Shown piece after piece: positions 825 to 27,061 of a DNA stretch of 64,000 nucleotides. Every line of letters begins with the position of its first letter. The stretch's first letter is position 1. This DNA comes from Pontiella desulfatans. Lineage in GTDB: Bacteria > Verrucomicrobiota > Kiritimatiellia > Kiritimatiellales > Pontiellaceae. Below the pieces are notes generated by a model, which saw nothing but the letters and a program-made list of their open reading frames with translations, did no database searches and was not told where the DNA came from. The DNA is taken from assembly GCF_900890425.1 (NCBI RefSeq), contig NZ_CAAHFG010000001.1, forward strand, positions 3,782,001 to 3,846,000. The letters run 5' to 3'. Position numbers and translations under genes: made by a program.

Positions 825-3800
825 ATGGCAGTCGAAGAGAACAAAACAAGCACCCCCGGGGTCGATCCGGCGGTGCTTAAAAGGTTTACCGGGAAACATG
901 CGCGGGTGGTGGACGCCCCCATCTGCGCGCAAGCCCTGCTCTGCCGGGATATCTTCCAGATCCTCAAACAAAACGTGCTATGGATTGCCGCCGATGTCCG
1001 CGAAATGGAACGCCTCCACGAATCGCTGCGCACGCTTGTGGAAGATACCGCAGGCGCCCCGTCGATCCCGCCGCAAGACATCCACCTCTTCCAACCCATG
1101 GAAAAGGATCCCGCCGTCTTCGGGGAACACCTCAAACTTGTCCAATACCTCACCCCTCCCGGACCCCACGGAAAAAGTCACGATCGTGACATTTTCCGTG
1201 GGGTCCGGTTTATCATCGTCACCTGCCCGCAGGCGCTGGAGCAGGAGGTTCCGCTCGCGGGGGAATCCGAACTGGCGGTTCAAACGCTTAGGGTCGGGGA
1301 GGAACATCATCCTCAAACCCTGACCGGTTGGATGTCGGATGCCGGCTATGAATTTGGCGTGGAAGTCTACTCCCAGGGAGAGGCCGCGCTGCGCGGCGGC
1401 ATTCTCGACTGCTGGCCCCCCGGCTCCCCCCGCCCCGTGCGTATCGAGTTCTTCGGCGACGAAATCGACTCCATCCGCTATTTCGATGACCAGACCCAAT
1501 GCTCCATAGAGAAGATCGATTCCGTCCAGCTCCCGCAAATGGACTTTGGCTTTGCCGGCGAAGACTCCTGCCCAATTACCGACCTTCTCCCCGAAAACAC
1601 CCTGATCGTTAATCCAGATGCGGCGGAAGATCTCGCCCAAAGGCGCAACGGCACCCATGAAGCGAGCCTGGCGGCTACTCGGCTTGAGCGAAGCGGGCAA
1701 GCAATAAATACCCGCTTTGATTTTTACGATACCGGACTCGTATCGGTTTCCTATGACACGCATCCGAAAGAGGCCGAACAGGCCCGCCGCCGGTTCGTGG
1801 ATCAGCGCTGTGCCGATGCTTCCGCCGATTGGAGCGTGCATTTCTATTTTGAAACCCGGGGCACCCTGAACCGGTTCAGGGAGCTTTATGAAGAGCTGGA
1901 GGGGTTCGATGCGCTGCAACTGCACCACGGCGTACTGCACGAGAGCGCCATCGACCACGGCCGGAAATTCCTGATCGTCACCGAATCCGACTTCTATGCC
2001 TACCACACCAACCGCAACGCCCACGCCCGGAACGCCAAACGATTCCACAAGCAACAGGAACGCGTTTCCGAAGCGGCCGACATCCAGCCCGGCGATTTCG
2101 TGGTGCACGTCGAGCACGGCGTCGGCAAATATCTCGGCCTTGTCGAGACGTCCTTCAGCGGCAAAAGCATGGAAGTGCTTTGCATCGAATATGCCAAGGG
2201 CGAAAAGGTTTATCTCCCCGTCACGCAGGCGCACCTGCTCACCCGCTATAAAGGCATGGGCAAGAATGCGCCCAAGCCGCACACCCTCGGCGGACGGAAG
2301 TGGAAAAACGACAAGGCAGGGGCCGAGGAAGCCGTTCAGGATTTCGCCTCCCAGTTGCTGCTGACCCAGGCCGAACGCCAGGCGAAACGCGGCTACCGCT
2401 TCTCCAAGGATACCGCCATGCAGGCCGAATTCGAAGCGGCCTTCCCCTACACCGAAACGCCGGACCAGCTCTCTTCGTCCGATGAACTGAAACGCGACAT
2501 GGAAAAACTGCGGCCGATGGACCGCCTGCTCTGCGGCGATGTTGGCTTCGGCAAAACCGAGGTCGCGATGCGCGCCGCCTTCAAGGCGGTGATGGATGGC
2601 ATGCAGGTGGCGGTGCTCGTTCCAACCACGATATTGGCGCAGCAGCACTACGACACGTTTGCCGAACGCATGGCCGCCTTTCCCATCCGGATCGACATGG
2701 TCAGCCGCTTCCGCAGCCGCGCCGAGCAAAACAAGACGCTCGTCCAAACCCTCGAAGGCGAGGTCGACATCCTCATCGGCACCCACCGCATCCTCTCCAA
2801 GGATGTAAACTTTAAGAACCTCGGGCTCGTCATCATCGACGAAGAGCAGCGCTTCGGCGTCACCGCCAAGGAGCACCTCAAAGAGCTGCGCAAACAGGTG
2901 GACGTCATCACCATGTCGGCCACGCCGATTCCCCGGACGCTCTACATGAGCCTGACCGGGGTTCGCGACCTGAGCACCATCAAGACCGCCCCGCAGGAAC
3001 GGCAGCCGGTCGATACCAACGTGATTCCCTACGACGAGGAGATTATTACCGAAGCCATCCGCGCCGAGCTGCACCGCGACGGGCAGGTGTTCTACCTGCA
3101 CAACCGCGTCAAAACCATCCATCTCGTCGAAACCCGGCTGATGACGCTGGTGCCCGAAGCCCGCATCGCCGTTGCCCACGGACAGATGGGCGAAACGGAA
3201 CTCTCGCAGATTATGCACGCCTTCGTTGAAGGCCGGTTCGATGTCCTGCTCTGCACCACCATCATTGAAAGCGGTGTCGACATACCCAACTGCAACACGC
3301 TGATTGTCGAAAACGCCGAGCGCTTCGGACTGTCCGATCTCTACCAGCTGCGCGGACGGGTCGGGCGCTCCAACCACAAGGCCTTCGCCTTCCTGATGCT
3401 CTCGCCCGGCGGCGACATGATCGATGCCGCGCGCGACCGCATGAACGCCATCAAGCGCTACACCGGCCTCGGCTCCGGTTTCCGCCTGGCCCTGCGCGAC
3501 CTCGAGCTGCGCGGTGCCGGCAACATGCTCGGGGCCAAGCAGAGCGGCCACATTTCCGCCGTCGGGTTCGACCTCTATTGCCAGCTGCTCAAGCGCACCA
3601 TCGCCATTTTGCAGGGCAAGAAGCCACCGCCGCTCATGGACGTGACCGTCAAGATCGACTTTCTCGACCTCTCCCCGAAAACCGGGACCGCGGCAAACGG
3701 AGCGTACATCCCCTACGACTATATCGAGGACGAAAACCTGCGCCTGCGCCTCTACCAGCGCATGTCGGCCCTGGCCACCAAGCAGGAAATCACCCTGATG

Positions 3801-4040
3801 AAGCGCGAGATCAAAGACCGCTTCGGGAGGCTGCCGCAGGAAGTCCACCGCCTCATGCTCATCGCCGAGCTACGCATCGTCGCTGCCGACCATGGGCTTA
3901 AATCCGTCATCGTCCGCAAGCGGCAAGTCATGCTCTCGGAAGACAAGCAATACCGCACCTTTGGCGGCATGCACCCGCGCCTGGAAGAAGACACAACCAC
4001 CCCGATGCTGAAGGAACTGATCGAGCTAATCAAGAGGTAG
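825..4040 (+). CDS. mfd: Transcription-repair coupling factor Mfd
   Basis: DNA translocase that displaces RNA polymerase stalled at lesions and recruits UvrA. The 1071-residue product has the full family order: UvrB-homology region, RNAP-interacting domain (GDFVVHVEHGVGKYLG), RecG-like helicase with Walker A GDVGFGKTE (Lys577) and DEEQ (from Asp672), motif VI QLRGRVGRS, and the C-terminal TRCF domain. The frame is open from an ATG at 678, but that would overlap the pyrB start; the ATG at 825 begins MAVEENKTS and puts the family-like sequence near the N-terminus. Oddities: a 50-bp near-palindrome lies in frame at 1159-1208 (about residues 112-128), and the TAG stop falls in the first REP unit. 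Confidence 0.96.
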   Translation: MAVEENKTSTPGVDPAVLKRFTGKHARVVDAPICAQALLCRDIFQILKQNVLWIAADVREMERLHESLRTLVEDTAGAPSIPPQDIHLFQPMEKDPAVFGEHLKLVQYLTPPGPHGKSHDRDIFRGVRFIIVTCPQALEQEVPLAGESELAVQTLRVGEEHHPQTLTGWMSDAGYEFGVEVYSQGEAALRGGILDCWPPGSPRPVRIEFFGDEIDSIRYFDDQTQCSIEKIDSVQLPQMDFGFAGEDSCPITDLLPENTLIVNPDAAEDLAQRRNGTHEASLAATRLERSGQAINTRFDFYDTGLVSVSYDTHPKEAEQARRRFVDQRCADASADWSVHFYFETRGTLNRFRELYEELEGFDALQLHHGVLHESAIDHGRKFLIVTESDFYAYHTNRNAHARNAKRFHKQQERVSEAADIQPGDFVVHVEHGVGKYLGLVETSFSGKSMEVLCIEYAKGEKVYLPVTQAHLLTRYKGMGKNAPKPHTLGGRKWKNDKAGAEEAVQDFASQLLLTQAERQAKRGYRFSKDTAMQAEFEAAFPYTETPDQLSSSDELKRDMEKLRPMDRLLCGDVGFGKTEVAMRAAFKAVMDGMQVAVLVPTTILAQQHYDTFAERMAAFPIRIDMVSRFRSRAEQNKTLVQTLEGEVDILIGTHRILSKDVNFKNLGLVIIDEEQRFGVTAKEHLKELRKQVDVITMSATPIPRTLYMSLTGVRDLSTIKTAPQERQPVDTNVIPYDEEIITEAIRAELHRDGQVFYLHNRVKTIHLVETRLMTLVPEARIAVAHGQMGETELSQIMHAFVEGRFDVLLCTTIIESGVDIPNCNTLIVENAERFGLSDLYQLRGRVGRSNHKAFAFLMLSPGGDMIDAARDRMNAIKRYTGLGSGFRLALRDLELRGAGNMLGAKQSGHISAVGFDLYCQLLKRTIAILQGKKPPPLMDVTVKIDFLDLSPKTGTAANGAYIPYDYIEDENLRLRLYQRMSALATKQEITLMKREIKDRFGRLPQEVHRLMLIAELRIVAADHGLKSVIVRKRQVMLSEDKQYRTFGGMHPRLEEDTTTPMLKELIELIKR
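1159..1208. repeat. Palindromic element inside the mfd reading frame
   Basis: A 50-bp inverted repeat centred at 1183/1184, with only the pair 1176/1191 unmatched. The central 10 bp are CACGATCGTG. It is read in frame by mfd as PPGPHGKSHDRDIFRG, between LVQYLT and VRFIIVTCPQ, where other Mfd proteins are expected to run straight into the strand containing the IVT motif. It looks like an inserted palindromic element, comparable in form to Rickettsia palindromic elements, that kept the frame. The centre is shared with the palindrome at 18177-18224. Confidence 0.75.
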
Positions 4041-4289
4041 GGACGACTGTCCTCAGTCGTCCGCCCCGAGCACAGGGCCGATCCACCGAACGGCGGGGTG
4101 GGACACCCCGCCCTACCCTGGGTAGGGACGACTGTCCTCAGTCGTCCGCCCCGTGCGCAGGGCCGATCCGCCGTGCGGCGGGGTGGGACACCCCGCCCTA
4201 CCCTGGGTAGGGACGACTGTCCTCAGTCGTCCGCCCGTGCGCAGGGCCGATCCGCCGTGCGTCGGGGTGGGACACCCCGCCCTACCCTG
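4036..4289. repeat. REP array: three tandem units of 84-85 bp
   Basis: Units start at 4036, 4121 and 4206 and are nearly identical. Each contains two hairpin-forming palindromes, GGACGACTGTCCTCAGTCGTCC and GGGGTGGGACACCCC, joined by a spacer around CAGGGCCGATCC. The mfd TAG stop (4038-4040) is the GGTAGGG start of the first unit, and the RAYT stop (4282-4284, minus strand) is in the CCCTACCC end of the third. The units adjoin each other with no unique spacers, so this is a BIME/REP-type array and not CRISPR. It may also act as an mfd 3' hairpin. Confidence 0.9.
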
Positions 4290-4728
4290 GGCGATTCTCC
4301 CAAACGTAGGGCCAATCTTCGGGTTGAACACACAACCCCGCCCGAACCGGATTCATGCGGATGTAATGGGCCTTTTCGATGTAGCTTTCATCCTTGCGCA
4401 ACCGATGGTCGAAGAAATCGCATTGCCATGAAACACCCAACATCCTCGCCGTATACTTCTTGAATTCCTTGATGCTCTTCAGCATTCCAACATCACGGTT
4501 AAAGCTCATGATGGCATGCAAGTGATCAGGCATGAGAACGAGCAGGTGCAACCAGAGATCGCCGCGTTCTTGATAGAATATAAGCGACCGATAGAGAACA
4601 TCGGCAACCTCGTTGGTGCAAAGCTGGTTTTTACCCTTTGGTTGCGTATTGATCGTGATGAAATATTCCGCGCCATCCTCAACCCAGGAAGGAATTCCAT
4701 GCGGCAGTGTTTTGCGTTCCGGCAACAT
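4282..4728 (-). CDS. REP-associated tyrosine transposase (RAYT)
   Basis: Single-strand transposase of the IS200/IS605-related Y1 (HUH) superfamily that, in the studied cases, nicks REP hairpins. The 148-residue product has the metal-binding HUH motif PDHLHAIM (His69, His71), the RAYT signature DHRLRKDESY, and HYIRMNPVRAGL, where Tyr122 is the expected nucleophile. REP units lie on both sides (4036-4289 and 4772-4855), the usual arrangement for a REP/RAYT pair. The last residues ENRPG and the stop are encoded by REP sequence. The frame is open upstream of the chosen ATG (4726-4728) and reads PFIWLHHPI, which resembles RAYT N-termini, but there is no ATG there; a rare start upstream is possible. 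It looks intact. Confidence 0.9.
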   Translation of the reverse strand: MLPERKTLPHGIPSWVEDGAEYFITINTQPKGKNQLCTNEVADVLYRSLIFYQERGDLWLHLLVLMPDHLHAIMSFNRDVGMLKSIKEFKKYTARMLGVSWQCDFFDHRLRKDESYIEKAHYIRMNPVRAGLCVQPEDWPYVWENRPG

Positions 4729-4771
4729 GATTGGATGATGCAGCCAGATGAACGGGTTGGCAAATCCAAAA

Positions 4772-4855
4772 GGCAGGGACGCGTGTCACCGCGCGCCCGC
4801 CACGTGCGCAGGGCCGATCCACCGAACGGCGGAGTGGGACACCCCGCCCTACCCT
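4772..4855. repeat. Fourth REP unit, upstream of the RAYT gene
   Basis: About 84 bp matching the array units at 4036-4289: the same GTGCGCAGGGCCGATCC spacer and GTGGGACACCCCGCCCTACCCT end. The first hairpin has diverged (GGGACGCGTGTCACCGCGC). Same orientation as the three units on the other side, so the RAYT gene is enclosed by REP sequence. Confidence 0.85.
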
Positions 4856-12367: not shown

Positions 12368-12600
12368 GGCTAAAGCAAGGCAACCTACCGGCAATCCGTC
12401 CCCGATTCCAATCACAAACGGATGAATCGCGTCGATGAGCGTCTAATTGGAATTGACGGCCGTGAAATCTAATTAGATGTTTTTGGGTTGCGCCATCTGG
12501 ATGGAACCGGTGTTTGGCAATCTGGGATGCGGTTATGATTGCACGGTAAAAGCTGATTGTGCATAAATGAGAAGCTTGTACCAAACGAAGGCAAAAGACT

Positions 12601-15763: not shown

Positions 15764-17152
15764 ATGATTCGTAATTTACTATTCACCCTCCTGGCCCTGC
15801 TCACGCTTGGCAGCGCACGGGCGGAGCAGACCAACCAGACCCCGCTCGTCTACATCATCCCCATCAAAAAGATGATCGAGCCGGCCCTGCTCTACGTCGT
15901 GCGCCGCGGCGTCGCCGATGCCGTGCGCAACAACGCCGATGCCATCATCCTCGACATGGACACCCCCGGCGGACGGGTCGATGCCGCAGTGGCCATTATC
16001 GACGAGCTAACCAGGGCCAACATTCCCCTCTACACCTTTGTTGGCCGCGAAGCCATCTCCGGCGGTGCATTCATTGCACTGGCCACCCCCAACATATACA
16101 TGGCTCCCGGCACCTTGATCGGCGACATCACCCCGATCATCATGGGCATGTCGGGCGGCGTGCAGGATTTGCCGGCGGCCGAGAAGGAAAAGATGACCTC
16201 CTATGTGGCCGCCCAAGTTCGTTCGGCCGCCGAGAAAGGGGGCTATGACCCTCTACTTGCGGAAGCCATGGTGCGGGCCGAAATCGAGTATAAGATTGGC
16301 GACCAGGTCATCAGCAAGGCCGGCAATGTGCTGACCCTAACCAACACCGAGGCCGAACAACTCGTCGGCGACGAGCAACGCCCCCTGTTCTCCAAAGGCA
16401 CCGTGGAAGACATCGACGAAATGCTGGAAACGATTGGCCTAAAAGGTGCGGAAAAGAAAACGCTCGAGGTCACGGCCGCCGAAAAGCTGGCTAGGTTGAT
16501 CGCCGCCATCGCCCCCATTCTGATGATGATTGGACTGGGCGGCATCTGGCTGGAATTCAAAACCCCGGGCTTCGGCATCTTCGGCATTGCCGGCATCCTC
16601 TGCCTTTTGCTCTTCTTTGCCGGGCACCACATTGCCGGACTCTCCGGCATGGAGGACGTTGTCCTGTTCATGCTCGGCGTCATCCTGCTGGGCATCGAAA
16701 TATTCGTTACTCCGGGATTCGGCGTGATGGGTTTCAGCGGCCTGTTGCTGATCTTCGTTTCATTCATCAGCGCCATGAGCGAGCGCATGCCCGGCAAGTG
16801 GCGCCCCATCGATTTTTCGCCCGAAACCTTCTCCATCCCTTTTCTGAAGGTGATGCTCTCGTTCCTCGGCGCATTTGCCCTGGTGGTAACCGCGGGGAAG
16901 TTCCTTCCCAAAACCCGGATCTTCCAGACCCTGACACTGGATGCGGTTGTGCCAGACGTGGATGAAGATGAAACCCTGCTAGGCCTTGAAGGCGTTGCCC
17001 ATTCCGACCTGCGCCCCGGTGGTTCCGCCTACTTCGGAGAACGGAAAATCGACGTGGTCACCCACGGCGACTACATCCAACGCCAAACCCCCGTCCGCAT
17101 CACCGAAGTCCACGGCAACCGCATCGTGGTCGAAGATATCTCGCGCGGCTAG
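15764..17152 (+). CDS. NfeD-family membrane serine protease (ClpP class)
   Basis: Membrane-bound protease of the long NfeD type, 462 residues. Signal peptide (LLFTLLALLTLGSARA), then a ClpP-fold domain with the oxyanion stretch DTPGGRVDAA and the nucleophile Ser99 in REAISGGAFIALA; Lys141 or Lys143 (AAEKEKM) is the likely general base of the Ser-Lys dyad. Hydrophobic segments follow from about residue 250 to 380, and the C-terminal NfeD OB-fold (LRPGGSAYFGERKIDVVTHG) ends the protein. Partner stomatin is not in the window. The stop overlaps that of the convergent gene through CTAG. Confidence 0.9.
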   Translation: MIRNLLFTLLALLTLGSARAEQTNQTPLVYIIPIKKMIEPALLYVVRRGVADAVRNNADAIILDMDTPGGRVDAAVAIIDELTRANIPLYTFVGREAISGGAFIALATPNIYMAPGTLIGDITPIIMGMSGGVQDLPAAEKEKMTSYVAAQVRSAAEKGGYDPLLAEAMVRAEIEYKIGDQVISKAGNVLTLTNTEAEQLVGDEQRPLFSKGTVEDIDEMLETIGLKGAEKKTLEVTAAEKLARLIAAIAPILMMIGLGGIWLEFKTPGFGIFGIAGILCLLLFFAGHHIAGLSGMEDVVLFMLGVILLGIEIFVTPGFGVMGFSGLLLIFVSFISAMSERMPGKWRPIDFSPETFSIPFLKVMLSFLGAFALVVTAGKFLPKTRIFQTLTLDAVVPDVDEDETLLGLEGVAHSDLRPGGSAYFGERKIDVVTHGDYIQRQTPVRITEVHGNRIVVEDISRG

Positions 17153-18102
17153 GTGTGCATGCTGCGCTGGAGCGCCATCCACTCATCGTAGCGTTCTTCG
17201 ATGACCGCAAGGTCTTTTTCGTTGTCGGCATCGAGCGCGGCGCCGCCAAAGTGGGTGTAGACGATCTGGACGCGAGCCCCCAGCGCGTTGCCAATCCCCT
17301 CGGACAAGCGATTGAAACCAACCAGGGAGCGCAGGCGATCGGAAAGATGCGGATGGCCATGACGGTCGTAGTATAGCGAAACCTGCATGAGGATGAAAAT
17401 GCGTAGGCTCTTCATCAGCCGCCACCCGTTGAACAACAACGAAAACAGCATGCGCACTATGTTGGCGAAACGGGTTTGGTAGCGCCATTCGTACATCTTT
17501 TCTATGTAGTCGAGATGATCCAGCACAAGCGGTTTGGCCATGTGCAGATTATTGTGGCGCATGAGGTCTTCCTTCACATGGAAATAGACCATCTGGATGC
17601 CCGGCTTGCCCTCCCGCGGATGATAGAGCGAGAGGAGATCGCGGGAGGTGACGCCGATGGAATAGTCGTACTCATGCATGTTGCTGCGCTTCAGGAATTC
17701 ATCGACCTCCTCCGGCAGCAACATCGGGATATCGCACGGCGCAACCAGCACGGGAGTTGCATCGTGCCCAGATCCCTTCAAGTCCCAGAAAGGAACCGCA
17801 ACATCGAGCCCCAGCGAGGCAACATAGCCCACCTTGAAGTTCTCGATCATGTTTTCGCGTTGCTCGACCACGATCACACGTTCATCGATCCCGACCGCCT
17901 CCAACGCGCCCCGAATCCGGTTGGCTGGCCCGACCACCGCCACCTCGCCAACCAGCTCCGCCCCGAGCAGCGCCTTCAGCACATGGATCAACAACGGCTG
18001 GCCGTTGAGTTCCAGGAAGGCCTTGTTTTCATGGTGCAACTGGATGCTGGCCCGCCGGTCGCCCGCCAGCAACACCGCGTTTACTTTTCTTGCCGTTCGC
18101 AT
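17149..18102 (-). CDS. Nucleotidyltransferase-like protein (MobA/GlmU-type fold)
   Basis: 317 residues. The N-terminus NAVLLAGDRRASIQ followed by NKAFLELNGQPLLIHVLKAL resembles the NTP-transferase domain (LAGG-x-SxR, K-x-L-x-x-x-G-x-P-L-x), but the canonical GG-x-G-T/S-R loop is degenerate. VLVAPCDIPML carries the Asp expected to bind Mg. The C-terminal 130 residues are helical with basic patches and have no motif I recognise. Function may be sugar- or cofactor-nucleotide transfer; enzymatic activity is not certain given the altered loop. Confidence 0.68.
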   Translation of the reverse strand: MRTARKVNAVLLAGDRRASIQLHHENKAFLELNGQPLLIHVLKALLGAELVGEVAVVGPANRIRGALEAVGIDERVIVVEQRENMIENFKVGYVASLGLDVAVPFWDLKGSGHDATPVLVAPCDIPMLLPEEVDEFLKRSNMHEYDYSIGVTSRDLLSLYHPREGKPGIQMVYFHVKEDLMRHNNLHMAKPLVLDHLDYIEKMYEWRYQTRFANIVRMLFSLLFNGWRLMKSLRIFILMQVSLYYDRHGHPHLSDRLRSLVGFNRLSEGIGNALGARVQIVYTHFGGAALDADNEKDLAVIEERYDEWMALQRSMHT

Positions 18103-18176: not shown

Positions 18177-18224
18177 AAGTATATCATCCATCACCCACGA
18201 TCGTGGGTGATGGATGATATACTT
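18177..18224. repeat. 48-bp perfect palindrome with CACGATCGTG centre
   Basis: Every base from 18177 to 18224 pairs around the centre 18200/18201, with no loop. The central decamer CACGATCGTG is the same as in the mfd palindrome at 1159-1208, but the arms (AAGTATATCATCCATCACC) are unrelated to the mfd arms. It sits between the nucleotidyltransferase start and the rho terminator. Confidence 0.9.
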
Positions 18225-18232
18225 TGGCCTGC

Positions 18233-18260
18233 AAAAAAAAGGCGGTCATTCGACCGCCTT
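18233..18260 (-). terminator. Intrinsic terminator of rho
   Basis: On the minus strand AAGGCGGTC-GAAT-GACCGCC is followed by eight T residues, 25 bp after the rho stop. The gene for Rho thus ends with a Rho-independent terminator. Confidence 0.9.
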
Positions 18261-20678: not shown

Positions 20679-22069
20679 CGCGTTGCCTCAAAAATAAATG
20701 ACACCGTAGAGGTGCGGATGAGGAGTCGTTTGACTGCATTAATGGGTACCCTCTAATTCGGGGGTTGTCAAGGTGGGGAGGCAGTCGGGGAACCCGGGTT
20801 CCCCGACTGCGGCGGACTCGCCGGTTTTCTTCATTTTTTCGATCTTGCGACGTCGGCGCTGGATGCGATTGCCCAGCTCGAAAGGGTCGAGCGTTTCGTA
20901 TTCGCGTTGCAGAGCAGCCTCCTGTTGTTCGCCAAGGATGCCGCTGACCTTCAGGCGGTCAAAGGGCGTGGCGGGGGCATCGTATTTCTTTTTGTACCGG
21001 CTTTTGACGCGAACCTTGCTTTTTAGCTTGAACGAGGGTTTGAAGAAGTTGTTGAGCCGTTCCCAGTCGCGGTAGAGTGCGTTGAGCTCTCTGATCATGG
21101 CCGGGTTGTCGAGCCGGTCGTAGCCGAGCAACTCGCGCACGTGCGTCCAGTTCTTTTGTTCGACATGGGCGTTGTCGTTCTTGTGGTACGGTCTGCTGCG
21201 TGTAAAACAGACGGGCTGTTTGCGTTGCAGGAAGTAGCGCGTGAGATGGTGGTTGAGGAACTCGCTGCCGTTGTCGCAGTCGAAGCCCAGGATGGCGAAG
21301 GGCAGCTTGTTTTCCACGTCGTGGGTTTGGTGCATCACGCCTTCAGCGCCTTTGTTCCAGACCGCGCGGGTTACCGTCCAGGTGCTTATGATGTCCGTAT
21401 AGGTGATCGACCAGATGAAGTCCCCGCTCATCGATCCGCCACAGTGGGCTACTGTGTCGGCTTCGAGATAGCCGGGCCGGTCGATGTCCTCGGTGGAGGT
21501 GCGGATTGGGATCTGATTCTTGAGCAGCGAGCCGGGCTTGGTACCGGTATTGCGCCTTCGCTGGTACTGCGCTTTGAAGGGTTTGAGCACCCGGTCGATG
21601 CTTGCCGGGCTGATTCTCAGTAGCTTTTCACGGCATTCGGTCGATAGCGGTTCGTAATGTTTTTCATAGTGCTTCAGCCAATGTGGCATAGCAGGCTTGA
21701 GGCGCTTCCCGCACAGTTGTCCAGAACGAAGCCACAGAGTTTTGAGGGTCTTGCGCAATTCAGCAGAGTCGTACTCGCCTTTGCGGCCGCGTTTGCCCCT
21801 GGAGGGCGTAAACGAGTCGTTGAGCAGCTTGGTGGCATGCTTGCGATCATAGCCGCATACCGCGCATACTTCATCGAGCAACCGGGTCTTGTAGGCCTTT
21901 TCCGCGCGCCTATAGCGGCGTTTTTGTACCGCGATGTATTCCATTCTGGTTTCGCAACTCATCTCTTTCATCCTCCCTGTATACAGGGTGTGATTTTTTG
22001 TGAGTCAACGAATCCTTTCCGCCCGCATCCTATCGGATGCTTCGGTGTCATTTAATTTGAGGCAACTCG
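20679..22069 (-). mobile_element. Insertion sequence, copy 1 (1391 bp)
   Basis: Ends are imperfect inverted repeats starting CGMGTTGCCTCAAA: CGCGTTGCCTCAAAAATAAA at 20679 and, on the minus strand, CGAGTTGCCTCAAATTAAAT ending at 22069. The 4-bp direct repeat GATC (20675-20678 and 22070-22073) flanks it as target duplication. Contains one DDE transposase gene read right to left. Same length as copy 2 (25671-27061) in the opposite orientation, with identical encoded transposase. Confidence 0.93.
20739..21971 (-). CDS. DDE (integrase-core) transposase, copy 1
   Basis: 410 residues. N-terminal helix-turn-helix region (LLDEVCAVCGYDRKHATKLL), then an rve-type core: first Asp in GYLEADTVAHCGG, second in DCDNGSEFLNHHL, Glu in NDNAHVEQKNW. 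A basic stretch (SKVRVKSRYKKKYDAP) follows. The family assignment is uncertain; it resembles unclassified (ISNCY-like) or IS481-related elements more than IS3, since there is no frameshift or second ORF. The C-terminal coding sequence contains a perfect 30-bp palindrome (20781-20810). Intact and identical in translation to the copy at 25769-27001, which implies recent activity. Confidence 0.92.
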   Translation of the reverse strand: MKEMSCETRMEYIAVQKRRYRRAEKAYKTRLLDEVCAVCGYDRKHATKLLNDSFTPSRGKRGRKGEYDSAELRKTLKTLWLRSGQLCGKRLKPAMPHWLKHYEKHYEPLSTECREKLLRISPASIDRVLKPFKAQYQRRRNTGTKPGSLLKNQIPIRTSTEDIDRPGYLEADTVAHCGGSMSGDFIWSITYTDIISTWTVTRAVWNKGAEGVMHQTHDVENKLPFAILGFDCDNGSEFLNHHLTRYFLQRKQPVCFTRSRPYHKNDNAHVEQKNWTHVRELLGYDRLDNPAMIRELNALYRDWERLNNFFKPSFKLKSKVRVKSRYKKKYDAPATPFDRLKVSGILGEQQEAALQREYETLDPFELGNRIQRRRRKIEKMKKTGESAAVGEPGFPDCLPTLTTPELEGTH

Positions 22070-25670: not shown

Positions 25671-27061
25671 CGAGTTGCCTCAAATTAAATGACACCGAAG
25701 CATCCGATAGGATGCGGGCGGAAAGGATTCGTTGACTCACAAAAAATCACACCCTGTATACAGGGAGGATGAAAGAGATGAGTTGCGAAACCAGAATGGA
25801 ATACATCGCGGTACAAAAACGCCGCTATAGGCGCGCGGAAAAGGCCTACAAGACCCGGTTGCTCGATGAAGTATGCGCGGTATGCGGCTATGATCGCAAG
25901 CATGCCACCAAGCTGCTCAACGACTCGTTTACGCCCTCCAGGGGCAAACGCGGCCGCAAAGGCGAGTACGACTCTGCTGAATTGCGCAAGACCCTCAAAA
26001 CTCTGTGGCTTCGTTCTGGACAACTGTGCGGGAAGCGCCTCAAGCCTGCTATGCCACATTGGCTGAAGCACTATGAAAAACATTACGAACCGCTATCGAC
26101 CGAATGCCGTGAAAAGCTACTGAGAATCAGCCCGGCAAGCATCGACCGGGTGCTCAAACCCTTCAAAGCGCAGTACCAGCGAAGGCGCAATACCGGTACC
26201 AAGCCCGGCTCGCTGCTCAAGAATCAGATCCCAATCCGCACCTCCACCGAGGACATCGACCGGCCCGGCTATCTCGAAGCCGACACAGTAGCCCACTGTG
26301 GCGGATCGATGAGCGGGGACTTCATCTGGTCGATCACCTATACGGACATCATAAGCACCTGGACGGTAACCCGCGCGGTCTGGAACAAAGGCGCTGAAGG
26401 CGTGATGCACCAAACCCACGACGTGGAAAACAAGCTGCCCTTCGCCATCCTGGGCTTCGACTGCGACAACGGCAGCGAGTTCCTCAACCACCATCTCACG
26501 CGCTACTTCCTGCAACGCAAACAGCCCGTCTGTTTTACACGCAGCAGACCGTACCACAAGAACGACAACGCCCATGTCGAACAAAAGAACTGGACGCACG
26601 TGCGCGAGTTGCTCGGCTACGACCGGCTCGACAACCCGGCCATGATCAGAGAGCTCAACGCACTCTACCGCGACTGGGAACGGCTCAACAACTTCTTCAA
26701 ACCCTCGTTCAAGCTAAAAAGCAAGGTTCGCGTCAAAAGCCGGTACAAAAAGAAATACGATGCCCCCGCCACGCCCTTTGACCGCCTGAAGGTCAGCGGC
26801 ATCCTTGGCGAACAACAGGAGGCTGCTCTGCAACGCGAATACGAAACGCTCGACCCTTTCGAGCTGGGCAATCGCATCCAGCGCCGACGTCGCAAGATCG
26901 AAAAAATGAAGAAAACCGGCGAGTCCGCCGCAGTCGGGGAACCCGGGTTCCCCGACTGCCTCCCCACCTTGACAACCCCCGAATTAGAGGGTACCCATTA
27001 ATGCAGTCAAACGACTCCTCATCCGCACCTCTACGGTGTCATTTATTTTTGAGGCAACGCG
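25671..27061 (+). mobile_element. Insertion sequence, copy 2 (1391 bp)
   Basis: Same element as 20679-22069, inverted. Left end CGAGTTGCCTCAAATTAAAT, right end TTTATTTTTGAGGCAACGCG; flanked by the 4-bp direct repeat AGCA (25667-25670 and 27062-27065). Different target duplications on the two copies show that each inserted separately. The transposase-promoter end of each copy points toward the enclosed sigma/kinase/HAD genes. Confidence 0.93.
25769..27001 (+). CDS. DDE (integrase-core) transposase, copy 2
   Basis: 410 residues, identical over its whole length to the product of 20739-21971: EADTVAHCGG, DCDNGSEF and NDNAHVEQKN hold the three acidic residues. Start ATG at 25769 (MKEMSCETRMEY), with GGAGGATGAAAG just upstream; a second ATG at 25778 is also possible. 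The palindrome equivalent to 20781-20810 is at 26930-26959. Intact, so probably able to move both copies. Confidence 0.92.
   Translation: MKEMSCETRMEYIAVQKRRYRRAEKAYKTRLLDEVCAVCGYDRKHATKLLNDSFTPSRGKRGRKGEYDSAELRKTLKTLWLRSGQLCGKRLKPAMPHWLKHYEKHYEPLSTECREKLLRISPASIDRVLKPFKAQYQRRRNTGTKPGSLLKNQIPIRTSTEDIDRPGYLEADTVAHCGGSMSGDFIWSITYTDIISTWTVTRAVWNKGAEGVMHQTHDVENKLPFAILGFDCDNGSEFLNHHLTRYFLQRKQPVCFTRSRPYHKNDNAHVEQKNWTHVRELLGYDRLDNPAMIRELNALYRDWERLNNFFKPSFKLKSKVRVKSRYKKKYDAPATPFDRLKVSGILGEQQEAALQREYETLDPFELGNRIQRRRRKIEKMKKTGESAAVGEPGFPDCLPTLTTPELEGTH

Follow-up and report, generated by a model that had tools for sequence, protein, structure and literature searches.

REP-like palindromes are common, and to our knowledge the RAYTs are the only proteins known to accompany them. 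In REP/REPIN systems with a RAYT (TnpA-REP), as in the one described here, short palindromes are dispersed mostly between genes, a single-copy, vertically inherited gene has its own repeats on either side, a genome can hold several families, each with a gene, and copies occasionally lie in frame within genes. The present system departs from them in that it has no HUH/Y1 enzyme, the protein having a PaaX/Cas2 fold, and in that its palindromes are loop-less, reach about 50 bp and are constant at the centre rather than at the foot; the GTAG foot is absent from the arm table of 54 genes and from the copies of the source genome. The Rickettsia palindromic elements found in coding genes are comparable to the copy within mfd (see below), an in-frame palindromic insert tolerated in a protein, but the present element is shorter, differs in sequence and has a dedicated gene.

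Another class, the CGTC-tagged REPs, includes Neisseria dRS3 and Rickettsia RPE-4/6, has no dedicated transposase reported, and is built from units that each have their own 8-9 bp stem and 4-5 nt loop (Di Nocera et al. 2013, PMC3733652). Two such units joined head to head by CGTC would give a GACG..CGTC centre resembling that of families E, G, H, I, and J. However, the halves of the present palindromes pair with each other instead of folding alone, and no 8-9 bp stem with a 4-5 nt loop was found in the half units of the ten families. If the present protein is a Cas2-fold nuclease, a relative of it might also supply what the CGTC REPs, having no transposase, are missing.

The protein itself can be compared to two known groups. 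With PaaX repressors such as E. coli PaaX (PDB 8a39), it shares the fold over its whole length and the PaaX_M/PaaX_C domains, but it keeps a Cas2 aspartate and a QxSVW motif, falls far below the PaaX equivalog cut-off, and has palindromes on both sides of its gene as well as dispersed copies. With Cas2 of CRISPR adaptation complexes, it shares a Cas2-like domain and an aspartate at the end of the first strand, whereas the domain is here fused between a winged helix and the PaaX C-terminal domain. A search of open-access journal papers returned none joining PaaX or Cas2-like proteins with palindromic repeats, and there is a real chance that this gene-plus-palindrome system is categorically new.

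A 48-bp palindrome and its arm families

The window, a stretch of 64,000 nucleotides (G000:C1:3782001-3846000) of the 8.66-Mb source genome (G000), contains the sequence AAGTATATCATCCATCACCCACGATCGTGGGTGATGGATGATATACTT at 18177-18224, between the rho intrinsic terminator and the promoter region of the gene for a MobA-like nucleotidyltransferase (Table 1). As the original prediction stated, it is an exact palindrome over 48 of its 48 bp and has the same centre, CACGATCGTG, as a palindrome within mfd at 1159-1208. Both are real, but a third member at 12439-12480 had been overlooked, and the perfect matching of arms claimed for the two holds for the 48-bp palindrome and not for the mfd copy, in which 1 of 25 pairs is mismatched. 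Their arms do differ from each other; neither pair is unique, since each is a repeated family sequence.

Table 1. Palindromes, neighbouring features, and cognate genes in the source genome. Positions without a prefix are those of the window.
Feature	Position	Strand	Remarks
Family A palindrome, solo copy	18177..18224		48 bp, perfect; few bp past rho terminator, 75 bp before MobA-like gene
Outer half-site GTATATCATCCA of the family A palindrome	18179..18190	+	kept in nearly all family A copies
Inner segment TCACC	18191..18195		varies across copies; partner in its own copy normally matches
Shared centre CACGATCGTG	18196..18205		class core CGRYCG
Outer half-site of the family A palindrome, inverted copy	18211..18222	-	
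rho intrinsic terminator	about 18233-18260	minus	
MobA-like nucleotidyltransferase gene	17149-18102	minus	
Family B palindrome	1159..1208		50 bp, in frame inside mfd coding sequence
Family G palindrome, decayed	12439..12480		16/21 pairs; centre GACGG|CCGTG; upstream of LysM/YkuD gene
Family A gene	G000:C4:582977-583792		
Family B gene	C1:4199217-4200035		contains in-frame TAG (L204)
Family C gene	C5:27155-27976		
Family D gene	C2:492687		
Family F gene	C1:3339467		
Family G gene	C2:106762		
Family H gene	C2:93992		
Family I gene	C2:776240		
Family J gene	C2:349566		

The shared decamer CACGATCGTG occurs twice in the window against a shuffle mean of 0.13 (1 of 100 shuffles reaches two) and 54 times in the genome, where about 30 occurrences are centres of long palindromes. 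In 1.2 Mb of contiguous DNA chosen without regard to the centre motif, 12 palindromes had at least 18 of 21 arm bases paired; 10 of them were centred on CGATCG or CGGCCG and the other 2 on CCCGGG, placing the shared centre far above chance. The constant centre is a real property of the class. Genome-wide, at least 75 distinct palindromes were found, with the class centre CG(A/G)|(T/C)CG. By their arms, all belong to one of ten families, named A to J, the smallest with 2 copies and the largest with 16. A covariance model built on 21 copies, with changes on both sides at 17 of its 19 pairs, found about 75 places among the 150 scored of 1685 candidates, a number to be read as a lower bound. No Rfam family matches the palindrome. 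Solo copies are mostly intergenic; four apparently intragenic ones (C3:346564, 482124, 500460, and 584207) coincided with over-long ORF calls and were read as intergenic or antisense.

Each arm has an outer part of about 10 nt that is gene-specific and nearly identical in all four arms around a gene, and an inner part of about 6 nt that varies across copies, next to a CGRYCG centre. The centre and its neighbouring bases read CACGA|TCGTG in families A to D; the five others (E, G, H, I, J) have GACGG|CCGTC or GACGA|TCGTC. In solo copies, the inner segment differs more between copies than from arm to arm in one copy (0.21 versus 0.08 in family A and 0.08 versus 0.03 in family J), with little or no such difference in families D and G. 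Symmetry also continues into unique flanking DNA, by a mean of 1.95 bp in near-perfect copies (13 of 40 by at least 3 bp) against 0.74 bp in mismatched ones (1 of 35 by at least 3 bp), and copy-specific symmetric flanks of at least 4 bp were counted in 9 of 75 copies where 1.9 were expected. The excess in near-perfect copies was reached in 0 of 3000 within-family shuffles but, as the family boundaries used here are our own reading and the excess fades past the first few bases, we take it as suggestive. It would fit copying from one arm to the other that overshoots a little into flanking DNA, or insertion into short palindromic targets.

Two other identities were considered for these palindromes and rejected. 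Within 0.84 Mb, GTATATCATC, CCCCACGGAAAA, and similar arm sequences occurred exclusively in full palindromes or at unrelated single sites, which does not fit lone half-elements or the ends of a large terminal-inverted-repeat transposon. By inspection, bidirectional terminators could also be set aside, since family B is AT-rich inside with a GC-rich foot and has no flanking T run.

Cognate genes and the protein they encode

Pairs of palindromes 860-900 bp apart enclose one ORF of about 270 aa. The genome carries nine paralogues, the eight others being 47-68% identical to the query, and every one of the nine lies between two palindromes of an arm family of its own, so that family E alone of the ten is without a gene in this genome. 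In most genes, the centre of one palindrome lies 24-29 bp ahead of the start codon, while the second palindrome is located right at the 3' end. Broken PaaX-like genes whose palindromes remain were seen in the source genome (L204) and, as split ORFs, in P. sulfatireligans (L271), and a CACGGAA-type solo palindrome (L380) is kept in G001 without a matching gene. At four further loci (L206, L214, L224, and L228), second palindromes lie 140-250 bp from the first beside the gene, which looks like a partial duplication of the unit confined to a single species.

The predicted protein matches the Cas2-like PaaX_M domain (PF20803; E about 1e-22) and, weakly, PaaX_C, and scores 48-59 bits against TIGR02277 (PaaX equivalog), below its cut-off of 264.55. 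An AlphaFold2 model (mean pLDDT, 89.5) aligned over its whole length with E. coli PaaX, the closest solved relative and a transcriptional repressor (Z, 18.7; 262 residues; rmsd, 5.8); residues 17-95 match MarR-type winged helices and residues 105-186 match Cas2 (Z of about 8). Asp113, Arg122, Gln138, and Ser140 are invariant in 66 of 66 aligned homologues. Cas2 nucleases bind metal through this aspartate, which ends the first strand; it is absent from E. coli PaaX and Rv0674, and none of the nine actinobacterial controls that could be aligned has it.

Relatives of the gene are present in half of the congeners (genus Pontiella) and are spread over Kiritimatiellota, Lentisphaerota, and Verrucomicrobiota; a single one comes from a Roizmanbacteria bin. 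Palindromes scoring at least 13/19 on both flanks were found for 35 of 37 close homologues, compared to 4 of 567 control ORFs taken from regions mostly picked for containing the decamer, and for 10 of 20 and 11 of 19 more distant homologues. None of ten actinobacterial PaaX-type regulators from plasmids had palindromes on both flanks; distant PaaX regulators were all that the plasmid search returned, none with the features described here, and no virus-borne copy with these features was confirmed. Distant lineages have other centres: TCCGG|CCGGA, TGCGA|TCGCA, TGCAT|ATGCA, or CTCAG|CTGAG. Many dispersed copies also occur in the distant genomes G243, G340, and G331, though they were not seen in every distant genome tested with the model. 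Three loci of distant Verrucomicrobiota (L311, L313, and L314) carry palindromes with a 2-nt central spacer, TGTCTCA[CC]TGAGACA.

Arms that change with the protein

The palindromes 5' and 3' of a given gene show on average 2.6 differences over 20 positions, compared to 10.8 for palindromes of different genes. Protein distances are correlated with arm distances (Mantel r, 0.60; 0 of 5000 permutations), also inside one genome (r, 0.52; 22 of 5000), and 14 of 23 solo copies match the gene arms of their own genome against a shuffled mean of 2.1 and maximum of 8. The genes appear to be inherited vertically at syntenic loci and not to jump. The family A gene occupies one conserved locus in nine species, among which its arms differ: they read ATATCATC in the source genome and GATAACAA in G008, the four arms changing in concert.

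Shared solo sites give a similar picture. The mfd insert is found at one codon site in five species, measuring 42 nt (33 nt in G013), with arms of family B in the source genome, of the gene L227 in G008 where that gene resides, and of the L214 family in G016. Carriers and non-carriers are intermixed within one clade; in the aligned non-carriers, a 66-nt segment lacks the insert, and no target-site duplication was seen at mfd. A site upstream of tatD is likewise common to five species (G000, G001, G030, G034, and G008), where G008 has GATAACA-type arms and the four others those of family A, by now half-decayed in G030 and G034. Since the mfd and tatD sites bear the arms of the resident gene family, arms have been replaced over evolution, in line with the arm-replacing process that was one of the two mechanisms first proposed. 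The other, host flank copied into an inverted arm, fails for the arms as a whole: conserved gene loci with changing arms and resident arms at shared solo sites identify them as family sequences, which recur at 2-16 loci and in the palindromes of the cognate gene. The empty-site comparison that had been suggested gives the same answer at mfd, where species without the element miss exactly the insert, core and both arms together, the outcome that the original prediction had itself named as refuting. What survives of flank copying is the extension of symmetry into unique flank by near-perfect copies, which exceeds chance.

The lacI/exbB and thiS-thiG regions each have a site common to two species. 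Upstream of the same LacI-type gene, the source genome has a palindrome-gene-palindrome unit (L202/L183), and G016 and G008 have a solo palindrome (L381 and L377). The rho site of the 48-bp palindrome is empty in G016, G008, G012, and G018, where rho still adjoins the MobA-like gene. The genomes compared showed neither a transposition event nor a target-site duplication, nor any recent empty site resolved to the base.

Candidate mechanisms

We lean, by a little, towards a REP/RAYT-like system with an unrelated enzyme as the best account, in which the 48-bp palindrome would be a solo non-coding REP-like copy. The protein would bind the palindrome as a symmetric dimer, its winged helices reading the gene-specific outer 10 nt or so of each arm and its Cas2-like core, placed over the CGATCG/CGGCCG centre, cutting or otherwise processing the DNA there. 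Repair of the cut or cruciform ends could then copy one arm into the other. Such copying would account for perfect arms in fresh copies, for inner segments that vary and yet stay symmetric in each copy, and for symmetry that at times reaches a few bases beyond the arms. It would also allow the arms of all copies to follow the protein as its specificity drifts. The same activity may rarely yield new solo copies, as RAYTs do for REPs. We hold more tentatively, and rather doubt than believe, the full claim that a single-protein Cas2-fold nuclease, unrelated to HUH transposases, both spreads and rewrites the perfect palindromes of bacterial chromosomes and keeps every copy matched to its own changing specificity. 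The REP/RAYT-like account is favoured by the flanking of all nine paralogues and 35 of 37 close homologues, the co-variation, the kept aspartate, the fold, the dispersed copies, the match of solo copies to the gene arms of their own genome, the smaller arm differences within than between copies, and the empty rho site. Against it stand the lack of any observed movement, the vertical inheritance of the genes at conserved loci (nine species for family A), the sharing of the mfd, tatD, lacI/exbB, and thiS-thiG sites within the genus, as would be expected of a regulon, a nearest solved relative that is a repressor, and the failure to find virus or plasmid copies.

The conserved loci and partly shared sites make a serious rival of PaaX-type repressors with their operators, in which the upstream palindrome serves autoregulation and the solo copies mark the members of a regulon, selection for binding making the arms track the protein. 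The PaaX fold, the spacing of the palindrome ahead of the start codon, the mostly intergenic position of the solo copies, and the sites common to several species whose arms track the resident protein all agree with it, and yet we consider it unlikely. A second palindrome directly at the gene's 3' end, an inner segment that is self-complementary in each copy though variable across copies, symmetry continuing into unique flank, copies within the mfd coding sequence that also track their family, and a Cas2-type aspartate missing from PaaX repressors all speak against operators. The enzyme is preferred because a pure regulator needs neither the 3' site, nor symmetric inner segments, nor the kept Cas2 aspartate. 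Template-switch correction of quasi-palindromes is established in bacteria, and template switching at replication could alone keep the arms identical, the protein merely binding the elements and neither moving nor editing them. The smaller arm differences within than between copies and the extended flank symmetry would follow, but dispersal, the pairing of families with genes, the invariant aspartate, and the conserved centre would be left unexplained, and we regard this as improbable.

Insertion of a core followed by copying of local flank into the opposite arm, the earlier reading, draws on the excess of copy-specific symmetric flanks, but is very improbable given that the arms recur beside the cognate gene as well as at numerous loci elsewhere and that the mfd insert brings core and both arms. 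Least probable of all, to the point of being hardly credible, is that these are classical REPs mobilised by the RAYT/Y1 transposases of the genome: there are indeed 19 Y1_Tnp matches, but none of the 19 loci has such a palindrome within 1.5 kb, and the Y1 gene of the window itself has ordinary GTAG repeats instead. For the preferred enzyme, we infer binding, central cutting, arm copying, and mobilisation from these comparisons of sequences and models.

Throughout a phylum, a protein fold that annotation usually labels a PaaX transcriptional regulator is now linked with palindromes of its own, and it is precisely the branch with palindromes that retains the Cas2-type aspartate. Should the protein cut the centre, it would represent a stand-alone role for the Cas2 fold and would provide dozens of natural pairs of protein and DNA site that have changed specificity together, both of which are testable with a few purified proteins.

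The window contains further repeats. At 4040-4240, a tandem array of units of about 85 bp forms GTAG-footed hairpins (GTAG GGACGACTG tcct CAGTCGTCC) and adjoins a RAYT (Y1_Tnp) ORF at 4285-4785 (minus strand). This is an ordinary, classical REP/RAYT pair, which thus coexists with the new palindromes in one window. Two identical 1,233-bp inverted copies, at 20739-21971 (minus strand) and 25769-27001 (plus strand), encode a 410-aa ORF without a Pfam hit, and each contains a 30-bp perfect palindrome, GCAGTCGGGGAACCC|GGGTTCCCCGACTGC, that is present elsewhere in the genome too.
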